A DNA stretch of 64,000 nucleotides from Burkholderia pyrrocinia. Its GTDB lineage: Bacteria > Pseudomonadota > Gammaproteobacteria > Burkholderiales > Burkholderiaceae. The stretch covers positions 186,001 through 250,000 of the forward strand of contig NZ_CP094461.1 of assembly GCF_022809715.1 (NCBI RefSeq), in the 5' to 3' direction. Of this stretch, positions 8,759 to 15,945 are shown one piece after another (the first letter of the stretch is position 1; every line of letters begins with the position of its first letter). A program made the translations under genes and the position numbers. A model generated the notes under the pieces. It saw only the letters and a program-made list of their open reading frames with translations, did no database searches and was not told the DNA's origin.

Positions 8759-10282
8759 TCAGCGATCCACGCACGCGCGCAGCGTGTGCGCGAGGCGACG
8801 CGCTTCGCCGGCATCGGCGATGTTCGCGAATCCGATGACGAGGCCGCGCGGCGTTTGCCGCGTGCGGCTGTTCGCATACCAGATGGACAGCGGCAAGATC
8901 GCGAGCCCCGCGTCCCGCGCGCGCGCGGCAACGGCGACGTCGTCGACCGGGCCGTCGGGCCCTTCGGGGAACTGCACCGCGAACTGGATGCCGCCGGCTG
9001 GCAATTCGACGATCAAGCGCTCGCCGAACGCCTGCTGCAACGCGTGCACGATCAGCGTGCGTCGCTCGCCATACAGCGTGCGCATCCGCTTCAGATGGCG
9101 GGCAAAGTGGCCCTGTTCGATGAAATCCGCCATGGCCGCCTGCAGGAGTGTCGGCGAGCCGGCGTTCATGCTGCTCGCGACCCGTTCGACGCGCTCCACG
9201 GCGCGCTCGGGCACGATCGCGTACGCAAGCCGCAAACCGGGATACATCGCCTTGCTGAACGTGCTGCAATAGATCACGTGATCCCGCCGGTCGAGACTCT
9301 TCAGCGCCGGCAGCGGGCGGCCCAGATAGCGAAACTCGCTGTCGTAGTCGTCCTCGACGATCCAGCCCGACGCTTTTTCGGCCCAATCCAGCAGGGCGAT
9401 GCGCCGGGCAAGCGACAGCGTATGCCCGAGCGGGCTCTGATGCGACGGCGTCACCAGCGCGAAGCGCGCCCGTGCGTCCAGTTGCATGCCGCGCTCGACG
9501 TCGATCCCTTCGGCGTCCACCGGCACCGGCACCAGCTGGACACCGGTCTCGGACAGAAAGCCGCGTGCGAGCAGATAGCCGGGATCCTCGAACCATACCC
9601 GGTCGTTCGGACGCGCGAGGCTGCGCAGCACGAGTTCCAGCGTCGCGCGGTAGCCGCCGGTGACGAACACCTGTTCCGGCGAGCAGGTGACGCCGCGCGA
9701 CAGGGTCAGATAGGTGGCGATGTGCTCGCGCAGCGGCCGGTAACCGAGCGGATTCGGGTAGCCGAGCAGCGCGCGGTCGCTGCTGCGCGCGCGCAGCGAC
9801 ACGAGCCGGTGCCATACCTTGCGCGGAAATGCGTCGAGCGCCGGGAGCCCGGGTTGCAACGGGCGCGGCTCGCCGCTCATCGCGACGGCGATCGGCTGCG
9901 GGCGCGGTGGAGCTTGATTGCCGGGCGGCATGTCCGACGCCGGTTGCGAACCGGCGTCTGCGGCGCGCTGTGCCGGTTCGACGGCCCGCGCGGGCAGCGA
10001 ACCCGTCAGCGATATCGGCAGGGACGGCGACACGAATGTGCCTGCCGCGCCGCGCATTTGCAGATAACCCTCGTCGACCAGGATCGCGTAAGCCTGTTCG
10101 ACGGTGCCGCGCGCGGTGTTCAACTGCGTCGCCAGGCCGCGCAGCGCGGGCACGCGATCGCCGGGACGCAGATGGCCCGCGGCGATCGCGGTTCTGAACC
10201 GCTCGCAAATCTGCAGATAGACCGGCAACTGATGGTGCCGGTCGATTTCGATGGTCAGGGCGGGCGTTGACGCGGACATCAT
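8759..10282 (-). CDS. MocR/PdxR-type transcriptional regulator (GntR HTH + aminotransferase domain)
   Basis: 507 aa from the ATG at 10282 (a second ATG follows directly). Residues about 8-75 are a GntR winged helix (LPVYLQICERFRTAI, GDRVPALRGLATQL, GTVEQAYAILVDEGYL). A proline-rich linker follows. Then a fold-type I PLP domain with the Schiff-base lysine in CSTFSKAMYPGLRLAY and the cofactor Asp region VEDDYDSEFRY. Such regulators sense PLP or its adducts with amino acids or amines. It is divergent from the NmrA-like gene at 10473, which is the best candidate target. The ribosome site is weak; a GTG at 10369 with GTGGAAG nearby is an alternative start. Confidence 0.88.
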   Translation of the reverse strand: MMSASTPALTIEIDRHHQLPVYLQICERFRTAIAAGHLRPGDRVPALRGLATQLNTARGTVEQAYAILVDEGYLQMRGAAGTFVSPSLPISLTGSLPARAVEPAQRAADAGSQPASDMPPGNQAPPRPQPIAVAMSGEPRPLQPGLPALDAFPRKVWHRLVSLRARSSDRALLGYPNPLGYRPLREHIATYLTLSRGVTCSPEQVFVTGGYRATLELVLRSLARPNDRVWFEDPGYLLARGFLSETGVQLVPVPVDAEGIDVERGMQLDARARFALVTPSHQSPLGHTLSLARRIALLDWAEKASGWIVEDDYDSEFRYLGRPLPALKSLDRRDHVIYCSTFSKAMYPGLRLAYAIVPERAVERVERVASSMNAGSPTLLQAAMADFIEQGHFARHLKRMRTLYGERRTLIVHALQQAFGERLIVELPAGGIQFAVQFPEGPDGPVDDVAVAARARDAGLAILPLSIWYANSRTRQTPRGLVIGFANIADAGEARRLAHTLRACVDR

Positions 10283-10344
10283 GGCCTTGTGGATCGCTGG
10301 AACGGACACGGCATGGACTAGTTTGATCGCCGATTCTTGGCTCT

Positions 10345-10352
10345 TATCGATA
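10345..10352. promoter_or_regulatory. TATCGATA palindrome in the MocR divergent region
   Basis: An 8-bp perfect palindrome within CTTATCGATAGGA, between the divergent MocR and NmrA-like genes. A short site like this is only suggestive of an operator. Confidence 0.2.
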
Positions 10353-10472
10353 GGACATGATACTTCCACAATTGCGCCATGCGATGTGACGGGTATGACC
10401 TGCTTCGTCGGAGACGGCGCCCGTCACGCGCCCCACGCATTCAAACGAAATCCTTTCGTCAGGAGATTTGCG

Positions 10473-11300: not shown

Positions 11301-12407
11301 ATGAATCAATCGGATACATCGGAGCACGGCGTTCGTCGTGACTTGCCAGGCCGCGCCGACGCTTTGTCAGCGAGCTTCGGTGCAAGCTATGCAGGCATCC
11401 TTGCGTTCGTCGCGGTGGCGAGCGAGGGGAGTTTTACCAAGGCCGCCGAACGTCTCGGCGTCGGCCGGCCGGCCGTGAGCCGGAACGTCCAGAAGCTGGA
11501 GGCGCAGTTGAGTACGCGGCTGTTCCAGCGGACCACGCGCATGACCGAACTGACTTGCGAAGGCCAGCGATTCTTCGAGAACTGCCACCAGGGCGTCGCG
11601 CAGATCGTGGAAGCCATGAACGACATGCTGGAACTGCGGGAGGGACCGCCGCGCGGCCTCATTCGTATCAGTTCGGCGGTGGGATTCGGCAGGAAAGTCG
11701 TTGCGCCGCTGCTTGAAACGTTTGCGAAGGCCTACCCGGACATCGTTATCGATCTACTGCTCGACGACCGGCCGATCGACCTGGTCGCGGAACGGATCGA
11801 CGTGTCGTTTCGCAACGGACGCATCGAGGACTCCAGCATCATTGCCCGGCAACTGATTCCGATGCAGATGGTGCTGTGCGCGGCGCCGTCGTACGTGGCG
11901 AGGCACGGGCTCCCGAAGAGTCTGGCGGATCTCGACCGGCACGAGTGCATCAACTTTCGATTTGCGAGCGGCCGCATCTTCGAATGGGAATTCAACGTCG
12001 ACGGCCGAGTACAAAAGTACTTGCCGACGTCCCGCCTCACGTTCAACGACACGGATCTGGTGTTGCGTGCGGTTCTGAGCGGATCGGGCATTGCGCAGAT
12101 GGCGGGCTATCAGATTCGCGACCATCTCGCATCGAACGAGCTCGTCGTCGCGCTGGCGAAGCATGTGCCCGACGATCGCGGGCACTATATCTGCTATCTC
12201 AGCCGGCAACATCTTCCGACGCGCATTCGAATTTTCGTCGACTTCATGACCGAGCAGATACGTGCACTCGACCTGAACTGCATGACGCAGTTCAACCCGG
12301 ACAGCCCCGATGCTTCGTCAGCCGAACTGGCAGCACGACGAAGCGGTGAAGGAGGGCCGTCCGGGCCCGTGCATGCGGCCCCGCATCCGATTGCGCTCCG
12401 CCGTTGA
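11301..12407 (+). CDS. LysR-family transcriptional regulator
   Basis: 368 aa, longer than the usual 300 because of about 30 extra residues before the HTH and about 45 after the effector domain. The HTH reads ILAFVAVASEGSFTKAAERLGVGRPAVSRNVQKLE, given here only as positions about 33-67, with key residues FTKAAE and AVSRNV. The effector part begins near GLIRISSAVGFGRKVV and contains the LysR pattern DIVIDLLLDDRPIDLVAE. The nearest upstream gene is the NmrA-like protein on the same strand (84 bases). No divergent target is adjacent, so its regulon is unknown. Confidence 0.88.
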   Translation: MNQSDTSEHGVRRDLPGRADALSASFGASYAGILAFVAVASEGSFTKAAERLGVGRPAVSRNVQKLEAQLSTRLFQRTTRMTELTCEGQRFFENCHQGVAQIVEAMNDMLELREGPPRGLIRISSAVGFGRKVVAPLLETFAKAYPDIVIDLLLDDRPIDLVAERIDVSFRNGRIEDSSIIARQLIPMQMVLCAAPSYVARHGLPKSLADLDRHECINFRFASGRIFEWEFNVDGRVQKYLPTSRLTFNDTDLVLRAVLSGSGIAQMAGYQIRDHLASNELVVALAKHVPDDRGHYICYLSRQHLPTRIRIFVDFMTEQIRALDLNCMTQFNPDSPDASSAELAARRSGEGGPSGPVHAAPHPIALRR

Positions 12408-13206: not shown

Positions 13207-14364
13207 TCAAACGTCGCCCTCCATCGCGCCATCGACCGCATGGTCCGCTGCCGGTTCGTTCACCATCACCGCAAGCAACGCCGCACGAAACGCGGCCATC
13301 TCCGCCGCGGTGCCGATGGACACGCGCAGGTATTCCGGCGGGCCGGACTCGCGAATCAGGACGCCGTGGCGCAGGAGCCCGCTCCAGATCCGGTGGCGAT
13401 CGGCAAACTTGCCGAACATCACGAAGTTGGCGTCCGAATCGGCCACGGTGAAGCCCTGGCTGCGCAGCCAGCAAACGATTGCATCGCGCTCGGCCTTGAT
13501 CGCATCGACCTGCGACAGCATCTCGTCACGCGCGACCAGCGCCGCGCAGGCGGCCGCCTGCGTAAAGGCGGACAGGTGATAGGGCAGCCGAACCAGCTTC
13601 AGCGCTTCGACGATCGCAGGCACGCATGCGCAATACCCGACGCGGCCGCCCGCGAACTTGAACGCCTTGCTTAGCGTGCGGGTAACGACGAGCCGCGGAT
13701 GGTCGGGCAGCAGCGTCACCGCGCTGCGCACGCCGTGGCGCCGGAACTCCGCATACGCTTCGTCGACGACCACCACGCCCGGCGCGATGTCGAGAATGGC
13801 GCGGATATCGTCGACGGGAAGCGCGGTGCCGGTCGGGTTGTTCGGCGACGTCAGCAGAATCACGCTCGGCCGATGCTCGCGGATGCTGTCGATCGCCTGA
13901 TGCAGATCCAGCGCGAAATCCTCGGTACGCGGCAACGTATGCAGGCGCGTGAAGGTCGTGCGGCAGTATTCGTCGTACATCGGATACGCGGGCGTAAAGG
14001 CCAGCGCCGCTCGCCCCGGGCCGCCAAACGCCTGAAGAATCTGCTGGATCACTTCATTCGAACCGTTGGCCGCCCAGACGCTCGACGCGTCGATCGTCAC
14101 GCCGGTGTCGTGCGTCAGATAGGCGGCCAGATGCACCCGCAGCTCGGCAAAGTCGCGGTCGGGATAACGGTTCGCCTGCCGCGCCGCGTCGGCCACGGCA
14201 GTCGCGATGCGCTCGACCAGCGACGGCGACGGCGGATACGGATTCTCGTTGACGTTCAGGCAGACCGGCACGTCGAGCTGCGGCGCCCCGTACGCGTGCT
14301 GCAACCTGAGATCCTCCCTGAGCGGCAATTCCGACAAGGACACTTCCTTCCACGGTCGTTGCAT
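13207..14364 (-). CDS. hisC: Histidinol-phosphate aminotransferase-type enzyme
   Basis: 385 aa. A fold-type I PLP aminotransferase of the HisC branch: NVNENPYPPS (38-47), SPNNPTG (173-179), cofactor-contacting Asp201 and Tyr204 (VVDEAYAEF), Schiff-base Lys233 in TRTLSKAFKFAGGRVG. HisC converts imidazole acetol phosphate and glutamate to histidinol phosphate; paralogues also use aromatic amino acids. The ATG at 14364 has GGAG at 14374-14377. A terminator with a U-tract and a His-rich leader ORF lie just upstream, which strongly supports a histidine-pathway role and attenuation control. It is a stand-alone gene, not part of a hisGDCBHAFIE operon in this window. Confidence 0.9.
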   Translation of the reverse strand: MQRPWKEVSLSELPLREDLRLQHAYGAPQLDVPVCLNVNENPYPPSPSLVERIATAVADAARQANRYPDRDFAELRVHLAAYLTHDTGVTIDASSVWAANGSNEVIQQILQAFGGPGRAALAFTPAYPMYDEYCRTTFTRLHTLPRTEDFALDLHQAIDSIREHRPSVILLTSPNNPTGTALPVDDIRAILDIAPGVVVVDEAYAEFRRHGVRSAVTLLPDHPRLVVTRTLSKAFKFAGGRVGYCACVPAIVEALKLVRLPYHLSAFTQAAACAALVARDEMLSQVDAIKAERDAIVCWLRSQGFTVADSDANFVMFGKFADRHRIWSGLLRHGVLIRESGPPEYLRVSIGTAAEMAAFRAALLAVMVNEPAADHAVDGAMEGDV

Positions 14365-14419
14365 TGAAAAACACTCCGTAAGTTATCGATTGATCGGCGC
14401 AGCAGGTTTTTAAGGCGGT

Positions 14420-14449
14420 AAAAAACAAAAAAGGCGCCGGAGGCGCCTT
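14420..14449 (-). terminator. Attenuator terminator upstream of hisC
   Basis: Read on the minus strand: AAGGCGCC, loop TCC, GGCGCCTT, then TTTTGTTTTTT. The stem is a perfect 8 bp (14442-14449 with 14431-14438) and the U-tract spans 14432-14420. It sits 55 bases before the hisC start codon and after a His-rich leader ORF, so it would stop hisC transcription unless antiterminated. This is the clearest intrinsic terminator in the window. Confidence 0.85.
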
Positions 14450-14462
14450 GGTCGTCGTCTTG

Positions 14463-14480
14463 ATCGGGGCAGCGCCCGAT
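14463..14480 (-). promoter_or_regulatory. Alternative hairpin / antiterminator segment of the his leader
   Basis: ATCGGG (14463-14468) and CCCGAT (14475-14480) form a 6-bp stem with a 6-base loop between leader stop codon and terminator. On the minus strand its GGGCGC (14477-14472) can instead pair with GCGCCT inside the terminator's 5' arm, which would prevent terminator formation. This is the expected switch of an amino-acid attenuator. Confidence 0.6.
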
Positions 14481-14487
14481 GCAAGTG

Positions 14488-14580
14488 CTAGATGCGAAAC
14501 GAACCACGGCGCAACAGAGGGCGTCCGTGGTGATGGTGCAAGTGGGTCGTCGCGTTTCGGATCTTCATGCGCTGCATCAT
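14488..14580 (-). CDS. hisL: Histidine-rich leader peptide of hisC
   Basis: A 30-codon ORF with start codons at 14580 and 14577. It begins MMQRMKIRNATTH and carries the run H-L-H-H-H-H at residues 13-18 (codons 14544-14527), then ends with TAG at 14490-14488. Five His codons in six just before alternative hairpins is the hallmark of his operon leader peptides. The function would be ribosome stalling under His-tRNA shortage, not the peptide itself. The ribosome site is weak (AGGA at 14593-14596, 12 bases away). An in-frame ATG further upstream (14721) exists but would make an unusually long leader. Confidence 0.7.
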   Translation of the reverse strand: MMQRMKIRNATTHLHHHHGRPLLRRGSFRI

Positions 14581-14755
14581 GACATACGCCGATCCTGATG
14601 AATAGCCGGCGTCGTGATGAATTCCGCGGAATGCGCGCTGCAATCCCGATCGGCGTTGTCGAGCGCCAGGGTCCCGATCTTTGATGCGGAAAGGAACCGA
14701 AAGCTTGTTGAGAATGGCCATTACGTCTGACGATAAGCGGTAGCAAACGGGGTAT

Positions 14756-14785
14756 TTCAAATTAAATGCGCACCGGTAATTTGAA
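14756..14785. promoter_or_regulatory. 9-bp inverted repeat in the hisC leader / LuxR divergent region
   Basis: TTCAAATTA (14756-14764), 12 bases, TAATTTGAA (14777-14785): perfect dyad with half-sites one full 21-bp repeat apart, i.e. two helical turns. Unusually AT-rich for this DNA. It lies 68 bases upstream of the LuxR-type gene and on the promoter side of the his leader; a good operator candidate for that regulator or another dimer. Confidence 0.5.
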
Positions 14786-14853
14786 CAATGCCGCTGGTTG
14801 AGTAAGATTCGCGCAAGACGTTCGACAAAAACGCACGGCGCGGGGGTAGCCAG

Positions 14854-15945
14854 ATGCAATGGAACGGATTGATTCCATCGGCATGGATCGATGACATCTA
14901 CGCTGCGGCACTGGGCGATCAACGATGGGAAACGGCGCTGGACGGGCTGCGATCGACGGTCGGCGTGCGCATGGCCACGCTGCTGTCGTTCGACGACGCG
15001 GCGCGGGTGCCGGCGATTGAGCAGGCGGCCGGCGACGACGCGTCGTGGGTCGCCACCTGTTACCACACCTACAACACCGAGTTCTACCGGTACGACCCGG
15101 TCGTCCCGGTCGCCAGCAACTGGCCGGCGGGCCGCTGGTTCGAGGACGTCAAGCACCTGTCCCCGCGGCAGCGCACACACGGCGTGTTCTATCAGGAATT
15201 CCTGCGTCCTTACGGGCTCGGCAGCATCTCGGGCCTGTACATCCATCGCGAAGCGGGGGCCGGCGCATTCCTCAGCGTACAGGGCGGCCCGGAATCGCAA
15301 GGGCTATCCGGCGATCAGCGCCGCACGATCGAAATCATGGGTACGCATATCAGCCGCGCGCTGCGGATCCACGCGCGCATCGGGGAACTCGAGGCGCGCG
15401 TGGCCGCCGCGGAATCGGCGCTCGATGCGATTCCGGTACCGGTGTTCCTGCTCGGCGAACATCGCGAACTGCGTTATACGAATCGCGCGGCCGATCAACT
15501 GATCGCGGCGGAACCGGCGATGCGGATCGTGAACGGGCGCTTCGCGCCGGAAGGCTGCGTCGACGATGCGCAATGGCGGCACGCGTTCGCGTGCGGTGGG
15601 TTGCTGCTGCGCCGTGCGACGGGCGAACCGTTGTCGCTCGCGCTGATGCCGATTCCCGAACAGTCGCGCCTTCTGCGTGAACGGCCCGGCGTCGCGGCAC
15701 TGATGACGGCCACCGACCTGCGTTCGCCGGCGGCCCGCGCGCAGCGGCTGCGCGTGTTCTACGGGCTGTCGTCGGCCGAAGCCGATCTCGCCGTGCTGCT
15801 GTGCTGCGACGGGCTGTCGCCGCAGGAATGCGCGGCGCTGCGCGGCGTGTCGATCGGCACGGTCCGCGCGCAGATCAAATCGATCTACGCGAAGACGGAT
15901 GTGACGCGCGCGGCGCAACTGACGTCGTTGGTCATGCAGACGTGA
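14854..15945 (+). CDS. LuxR-type (GerE HTH) transcriptional regulator
   Basis: 363 aa. The C-terminal 60 residues are a GerE-type HTH (GLSSAEADLAVLLCCDGLSPQECAALRG region, about 302-330; VSIGTVRAQIKSIYAKTDV about 331-349). The HTH begins SSAEAD where most members have T-x-R-E, a common variant in this subgroup. The N-terminal 180 residues are a sensing region of unknown ligand and a PAS-like segment follows (ALDAIPVPVFLLGEHRELRYTNRAADQL, about 193-220). Not an acyl-homoserine lactone receptor by visible motifs. Divergent from the his leader; the dyad at 14756-14785 lies in the shared promoter region. Confidence 0.82.
   Translation: MQWNGLIPSAWIDDIYAAALGDQRWETALDGLRSTVGVRMATLLSFDDAARVPAIEQAAGDDASWVATCYHTYNTEFYRYDPVVPVASNWPAGRWFEDVKHLSPRQRTHGVFYQEFLRPYGLGSISGLYIHREAGAGAFLSVQGGPESQGLSGDQRRTIEIMGTHISRALRIHARIGELEARVAAAESALDAIPVPVFLLGEHRELRYTNRAADQLIAAEPAMRIVNGRFAPEGCVDDAQWRHAFACGGLLLRRATGEPLSLALMPIPEQSRLLRERPGVAALMTATDLRSPAARAQRLRVFYGLSSAEADLAVLLCCDGLSPQECAALRGVSIGTVRAQIKSIYAKTDVTRAAQLTSLVMQT

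Follow-up and report, generated by a model that had tools for sequence, protein, structure and literature searches.

A probable histidine attenuator before a stand-alone hisC of Burkholderia pyrrocinia and related leaders before other genes

The his attenuator of enteric bacteria and other gamma-proteobacteria (His_leader, which we take to be Rfam family RF00514) is characterized by a leader peptide with a run of His codons, competing hairpins and an intrinsic terminator. The same features are found in a leader located upstream of a hisC gene in Burkholderia pyrrocinia. It differs from His_leader in serving a single hisC and not a his operon, in the lack of a match to the His_leader model of Rfam, in being probably leaderless, and in its build as a trp-like three-element switch with an additional outer helix (P0); furthermore, no match to it was found near the his genes of the host itself. 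By its build it resembles the trp attenuator, including the leaderless trpL/rnTrpL, with which it would share ribosome stalling, two mutually exclusive structures and an mRNA beginning at the leader ATG. A leaderless leader mRNA is described for rnTrpL of Sinorhizobium meliloti in excerpts of PMC7298713. The window leader has His and not Trp codons, and the gene behind it is a different one.

Excerpts of PMC9413887 describe his attenuators in gamma-proteobacteria and Firmicutes, in the latter before his operons, and according to excerpts of PMC2965389, hisZ and a paralogue of hisS are preceded by His leader peptides in bacilli. The likeness to the leaders reported here is a His leader before single His genes, including a HisRS paralogue. 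The bacilli and Firmicutes belong to a different phylum, however, and hisC and GNAT targets or a frameshift are unmentioned in those excerpts of PMC2965389 and PMC9413887. A table in PMC9413887 contains a T-box(His) before a single hisC of Natranaerobius, again a stand-alone hisC under tRNA-His control, in contrast to the translated leader with His codons in the window. In searches of the openly licensed literature, the titles and starts of abstracts listed named no His attenuator before hisC in Burkholderia, nor one outside a his operon in Burkholderiaceae. If the interpretation given below is correct, the Burkholderiaceae have here a histidine attenuator that does not belong to a his operon.

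The leader region upstream of hisC

The window is a stretch of 64,000 nucleotides (contig NZ_CP094461.1, positions 186,001 to 250,000), and all elements of the leader lie on its minus strand. Upstream of hisC, a promoter-like block is followed by the His-rich leader ORF, then by a hairpin, a terminator with a U-tract, and the gene. A perfect 8-bp terminator with a U-tract, 55 bases before hisC, had been proposed in an earlier, sequence-only reading of this DNA, and both strings and coordinates were confirmed: the intrinsic terminator, AAGGCGCC-TCC-GGCGCCTT and U-tract, occupies 14420..14449. Its RNA reads AAGGCGCC-UCC-GGCGCCUU at 14449-14431 with the U-tract extending to 14420, and 55 bases separate the terminator region from the hisC start at 14364. 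The 6-bp middle hairpin of that reading was likewise found, as ATCGGG-cgctgc-CCCGAT at 14463..14480. It is paired in 92% of cells in hisC-type leaders, with four doubly changed cells (5/500 shuffles as high) and a loop that varies, and may have a role in pausing or insulation.

The leader ORF ends at 14488, as proposed, and has His at five of six codons in the run CAC TTG CAC CAT CAC CAC (H-L-H-H-H-H; 14527..14544, codons 9 and 11-14). The proposed length of 30 codons, MMQRMKIRNATTHLHHHHGRPLLRRGSFRI, was not upheld. Translation very probably starts 12 nt further in, at 14568, giving a leader of 26 codons (MKIRNATTHLHHHHGRPLLRRGSFRI and a stop codon; 14488..14568), because the stretch before this ATG resembles a conserved promoter box and not a coding sequence. 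The ATG is present in all 30 hisC-type leaders. An extended -10 element, TGTCATGAT (14576..14584), lies 7 nt before it, and the -35 region of a predicted sigma-70 promoter, CTATTCATC (14597..14605), has the core TATTCA 17 bp before the -10. In 54 of 59 leaders (not in loci L169, L170, L178, L180 and L184) the pattern TGN(C/T)ANNNT precedes the leader ATG by 6 or 7 nt, and one of the 59 has a Shine-Dalgarno-like tetramer before the ATG. A CTTTTCAT-like -35 block occurs at fixed spacing in most hisC-type leaders, L116 and L118 excepted. L011 and L117 are one base shorter between the -10 and the ATG, which breaks the longer, 30-codon frame. A sigma-70 promoter that would start transcription at the leader ATG, giving a leaderless 26-codon leader, is the simplest reading of these sequences.

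An intact hisC was present in 27 of the 29 genomes carrying the gene, and in all 27 it is preceded by the leader, in agreement with the earlier proposal of a His attenuator serving a single hisC in Burkholderia. Since all 27 intact genes keep both the His run and the terminator, the loss of either one in close relatives, named beforehand as evidence against an attenuator, was not found. In the other two genomes (L113, L120) hisC lacks its N-terminus and the leader, and other DNA stands in front; judged from its sequence, the DNA before L120 resembles an IS66-type transposase. Named loci included, 37 hisC loci were read, of which 35 have a leader, with 30 distinct leader sequences. At least three His codons were found in the run of each of the 35; L094, L101 and L117 each have one altered codon within the run of four. 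An intrinsic terminator lies between leader and gene in 30 of 30 distinct hisC-type leaders, all with eight of eight pairs kept, and is paired in 97.9% of cells over 48 leaders.

A chance origin of the arrangement was rejected. The pattern searched for was at least four His in five codons, with a perfect stem and a U-run no more than 170 nt further on. All six frames of the 64-kb window contain a single match, this leader. Another 85 loci with a total of 729,385 bases (76 actinobacterial hisC loci, nine stretches of the window's own genome) gave no match; they contain 24 such His runs, all without a terminator.

An Rfam search of 13900-15000 (E up to 10) returned six matches without His_leader among them; the best was isrK with 20.6 bits, far under the cut-off of 50. 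Seven related loci gave no gathering-level match to any Rfam family. Near the host's own his genes (C1:405000-417000), the leader model gave no match at E up to 10. A T-box riboswitch binds uncharged tRNA directly; a T-box was rejected for the window because a translated His-codon leader is present and Rfam gave no T-box match.

Competing helices and predicted switching

Element 1, ACCACGGACGC (14521..14531), takes in the last His codons. It is a near-repeat of element 3, ACCAAGGCGC (14443..14452), which overlaps the 5' arm of the terminator and the bases before it. Both are complementary to element 2, GCGCCGTGGT (14503..14512), which can be the partner of element 1 or, as an antiterminator, of element 3. 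In an alignment of the 30 distinct hisC-type leaders, 95.3% of cells were paired in the 1:2 helix, 94.8% in 2:3 and 100% in 3:4, compared to at most 56%, 50% and 75% when the helices were slid by one to three columns. No doubly changed pair was found in 1:2, 2:3 or 3:4 of these 30 leaders, so it is conservation alone that supports the three helices there.

A second alignment contained 48 leaders, namely 26 of 32 fetched regions and 22 of the 30 hisC-type leaders; L187, L188 and L189, which are not this leader, and L182, L185 and L186, with a lost terminator or a degenerate leader, were left out. Pairing was 95.2% for 1:2 and 93.1% for 2:3. The 1:2 helix had four doubly changed pairs in five cells (1/500 and 2/500 shuffles as high), counts that are not independent since the relatives are closely related. 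This covariation is weaker than that of P0: slid by -3, the helix also gave four doubly changed pairs, in six cells, but was only 54% paired. In 2:3, two doubly changed pairs (13/500 shuffles) in two cells (14/500) were observed, and slid versions were no lower.

P0 is an outer helix. In the hisC type it is formed by CGAAACG in codons 4-6 (14553..14559) and the complementary CGTTTCG just 3' of element 2 (14495..14501); the corresponding pair in a second leader type is CGTAACG with CGTTACG. Over the 48 leaders 90% of P0 cells are paired (0/500 shuffles as high), and 22 cells are doubly changed against a shuffle mean of 8.7 (0/500 as high) and 1-4 in slid versions. The number of changed pairs (60/500) and the pair types (326/500) are not outstanding. 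The covariation is mostly one inherited change from A-U to U-A, and the P0 changes of L179 (GCAAC/GTTGC) and L196 look independent. L196 has a different, 10-bp helix taking in the start codon, which P0 also takes up in the predicted fold of several relatives.

Folding of 14365-14600, the check proposed earlier, gave a structure more stable than shuffles (z -2.9; 1/200 shuffles as good). To model a ribosome whose A site holds codon n, the leader was masked to 12 nt from that codon, in a thermodynamic treatment without kinetics. The mean predicted terminator probability over the 30 leaders was at least 0.99 at all A-site codons except 10-16. It fell below 0.5 in two leaders at codon 10, 23 at codon 11, 24 at codon 12, 14 at codon 13, seven at codon 14, five at codon 15 and one at codon 16, and in none of the 30 at codons 1-9 or 17-33. 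The codons of predicted terminator loss are centered on the run of four His, codons 11-14. The dip persisted, shifted by one or two codons, when masks of 9 to 17 nt were used. Switching was predicted for 26 of the 30 real leaders, compared to 29 of 300 in which the stretch between run and terminator had been shuffled. Four of the 30 did not switch in the model; switching was poor or absent in L114 (which has lost ACCA), L116 and L117. In the window leader, masking at codons 11-12 let the 2:3 pairing take over (P 0.95-0.97). Leaders of the second type dip less, to a mean of 0.58-0.66 at codons 12-14; among those found at the level of the order, L194 switches, L196 goes only to 0.77 and L195 does not switch at all. 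In this model, a ribosome at the His codons is predicted to set an antiterminator that excludes the terminator.

Related leaders before other genes

A covariance model (R1) built on the 30 leaders was searched against 398 genomes of the family. Large searches of this kind used stricter filters, so that match counts are lower bounds, and E-values of such home-made models are rough. At E up to 1.6e-10 at least 54 matches were found, 25 before hisC and 29 elsewhere. The 25 correspond to every intact hisC of the 398-genome sample. Of the other 29, 20 precede a short HisRS-like protein, one of these (L185) without terminator and N-terminus. Another five precede GNAT acetyltransferases, four of one kind, among which the leader of L186 is degenerate, and one of another kind; these GNAT loci with the same or a degenerate attenuator are L175, L177, L178, L186 and L179, and Pfam was run on L175 and L179. 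Two more precede the start of the same GNAT kind without a long frame. In the last two, L166 and L182, the leader is left and the HisRS-like gene is gone or replaced. The losses in L166, L182 and L185 suggest turnover of the module.

A typical second-type leader reads MELRNVPNQSRHHHGRHSMRRGSLRP. Leaders and genes do not correspond one-to-one, because the hisC of L116 and L118, in other genera, carries a leader of the second type. At E up to 0.01, 160 of the 398 genomes match R1. The weak matches were treated as chance on the basis of three that were fetched (L187 from the window's own genome, L188 and L189; R1 E 3e-7 to 5e-7), none of which is this leader; L189 falls in a His-rich, coding-like stretch. 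The window genome has one strong leader match, and the next best (E 3.4e-7 with R1, 0.001 with R2) lacks a His leader. A second model, R2, was searched against 349 order-level genomes with an E limit of 1e-6; it matched at least the window's own genome and three genomes in other families, and all three of the latter (L194-L196) precede the HisRS-like gene. The terminator pattern was not found in L200, a named GNAT record. Genes for IS66, IS91/integrase or a recombinase lie near the loci in three named records, one of them the GNAT record without a terminator.

The main frame of the HisRS-like gene scored 103.5 bits against TIGR00442 (hisS, cut-off 286.75) and 40.6 bits against PF13393 (cut-off 25), and no anticodon-binding domain was matched. 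Stretches that we take to be motif 2 and motif 3 of HisRS, together with an RGLxYY stretch, are visible in the protein, which the source annotations call 'ATP phosphoribosyltransferase regulatory subunit' or histidyl-tRNA synthetase. A class-wide search at E 1e-50 found the protein in none of 350 genomes, the window's own included. The protein also has relatives in Pseudomonas. The gene is split between two frames, with its start in one frame (MTMIRGTRFIVGKEAAQIRALETQFRSYLH-like) and the rest in the +1 frame (FIxxGAEEAIVPALW...). The split was seen in all 19 loci that have an N-terminus, as well as in further order-level and named loci (together L158-L165, L167-L171, L173, L174, L180, L181, L183, L184, L194-L196, L199 and L201). 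The join lies at TAY CTT CAY, with TTT for TAY in L195; a zero-frame stop follows directly in 18 of 19 loci, and GGAG stands four bases before CTT in 18 of 19. Before the site, pairwise comparison gave 1429 synonymous and 738 non-synonymous differences in the zero frame (146 and 2089 in the +1 frame there), and after it 705 synonymous and 332 non-synonymous codon differences in the +1 frame, the pairs not being independent in either case. Two frames thus appear to be under coding constraint around a conserved CUU shift codon, as in the RF2 gene.

The autoregulatory +1 frameshift of prfB (RF2), with its CUU shift codon and Shine-Dalgarno-like stimulator, is described in excerpts of PMC5009743. 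The HisRS-like loci are similar in their short zero frame, the CUU, the upstream Shine-Dalgarno-like stretch and a main product in the +1 frame. In contrast to prfB, they have CAU or CAC (His) in the A site and the stop one codon later; the slow step would therefore be the selection of His-tRNA and not of RF2. By this analogy the CUU CAY site looks like a candidate hungry-codon programmed +1 frameshift, and if it is one, the gene would be gated twice by His-tRNA. Such loci point to natural His-tRNA-gated frameshifting, in which a relative of an aminoacyl-tRNA synthetase would be produced only while its own codon is decoded slowly, a counterpart to the autoregulation of RF2.

A further reading, somewhat more likely than not, is a mobile, leaderless His attenuator common to unrelated stand-alone genes (HisC, a HisRS-like core and GNATs) of Burkholderiaceae and a few neighbouring families. 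The HisRS-like gene would be under two histidine sensors, the attenuator and an RF2-style +1 frameshift with a hungry His codon (CUU CAY) in place of UGA. All these genes would form a regulon, copied gene by gene, with which the cell answers a loss of charged tRNA-His, perhaps so as to tolerate natural products or toxins that target histidine or HisRS. The attenuator would then be a portable module placed on different single genes, and could help to explain why a third HisC or a minimal HisRS-like protein is kept by some Burkholderiaceae.

From its sequence, the conservation of its pairings, the covariation of P0 and, more weakly, of 1:2, and the predicted switching, the window element itself is very likely a transcription attenuator of the ribosome-mediated, trp-like kind, with charged tRNA-His as its signal. 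Transcription would start at, or one base before, the leader ATG, and the leader mRNA would be leaderless. With enough His-tRNA the ribosome would reach the stop codon, element 2 would be occupied or re-paired with element 1, and the 3:4 terminator would form before hisC. When His-tRNA is short, the ribosome would presumably stall on the His run and cover element 1. Element 2, freed in this way, would pair with element 3 and block the terminator, and hisC would be read. The outer helix P0 would hold an untranslated leader shut and limit re-initiation.

The switch had been drawn differently in the sequence-only reading, with GGGCGC of the middle hairpin pairing with GCGCCT of the terminator and preventing its formation. 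The two strings are complementary in the window and the pairing is possible there. However, GGGCGC occurs in one of 30 leaders, that of the window, and 74% of cells retain the pairing (50% for one of its halves), against 93-95% for 2:3, which is also the helix that takes over in the masked fold of the window (P 0.95-0.97, codons 11-12). An attenuator of that form is extremely improbable. The conserved RNA could instead act in trans, as a small RNA that has a terminator of its own or through its leader peptide, with hisC transcribed by leaky read-through only. A terminated leader RNA is expected from the locus, trans roles are described for rnTrpL and peTrpL of Sinorhizobium meliloti in excerpts of PMC7298713, and there is a weak resemblance to isrK in Rfam, far under the cut-off (20.6 of 50 bits). 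A trans role alone would leave unexplained the predicted de-repression around the His codons and the His-related genes (hisC, HisRS-like) behind the leader, and is considered highly unlikely. As an addition to attenuation, the short RNA may have a trans role.

A real attenuator could also respond to an agent that depletes charged tRNA-His, such as an inhibitor of HisRS, a His antimetabolite or a toxin directed against tRNA-His, in which case the genes behind it would be tolerance genes. Three kinds of stand-alone genes behind one attenuator, the IS66, IS91/integrase or recombinase genes near the loci in three named records, one of them without the terminator, and two other HisC enzymes in the window's genome would fit such a role. 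GNATs are a common detoxifying family, and the auxiliary indolmycin-resistant TrpRS of Streptomyces, which is under Trp attenuation, can be likened to this situation. However, no gene for a toxin or a biosynthetic pathway was noticed in the short annotated stretches around the loci, and plain histidine limitation in soil or on plants would explain the same facts. An agent of this kind is considered a rather unlikely signal.

The hisC gene and its genomic setting

The gene behind the leader (13207..14364, minus strand) encodes an actinobacterial-type histidinol-phosphate transaminase of 385 aa, which scored 580 bits against NCBIfam NF002877 (cut-off 409). The nearest solved structures are the HisC entries 3cq4, 3cq5, 9t0w and 4r8d, presumably from Corynebacterium and Mycobacterium. 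Among the best 80 hisC loci in species genomes, four are from Burkholderiaceae and 76, by title, from Actinomycetota. In a tree of 76 rows the Burkholderiaceae, represented by 16 of their 35 rows, formed one clade with support 100 amid Actinomycetota, of which 58 of 76 rows were included. This placement is not firm, because the nesting branches have support of 87-88 and the two outgroup rows lie on very long branches. The donor is only roughly placed, since the list comprised the best 80 loci, sampling covered Burkholderiaceae and Actinomycetota, and the tree was built on part of the rows.

The genome of 7.69 Mb is assembled in three contigs. Two other HisC enzymes, with 37% and 34% identity to that of the window, are encoded on contig C1, and both exceed the TIGR01141 cut-off. 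One of the two genes lies among other his genes, flanked by ORFs that we take to be HisD-like before it and HisA-like after it; the other stands alone. Because of these two, the window hisC, on the 1.05-Mb contig C3, is the third HisC of the genome. It was probably acquired from Actinomycetota, and as a third, probably acquired HisC it would probably be switched on to add transaminase capacity only in histidine starvation. The actinobacterial type of hisC occurs in 22 of 65 Burkholderia genomes and in 27 of 398 sampled family genomes, 29 genomes together. In a plasmid collection, matches were found in two Burkholderia pyrrocinia records, in Paraburkholderia ginsengisoli and in Burkholderia arboris (unannotated).

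Several regulators are encoded close to hisC. A helix-turn-helix regulator at 14854-15945 is divergent from the gene and is annotated as such in both B. pyrrocinia records. Two more lie nearby, one of LysR type at 11301-12407 and one resembling MocR/PdxR at 8759-10369.
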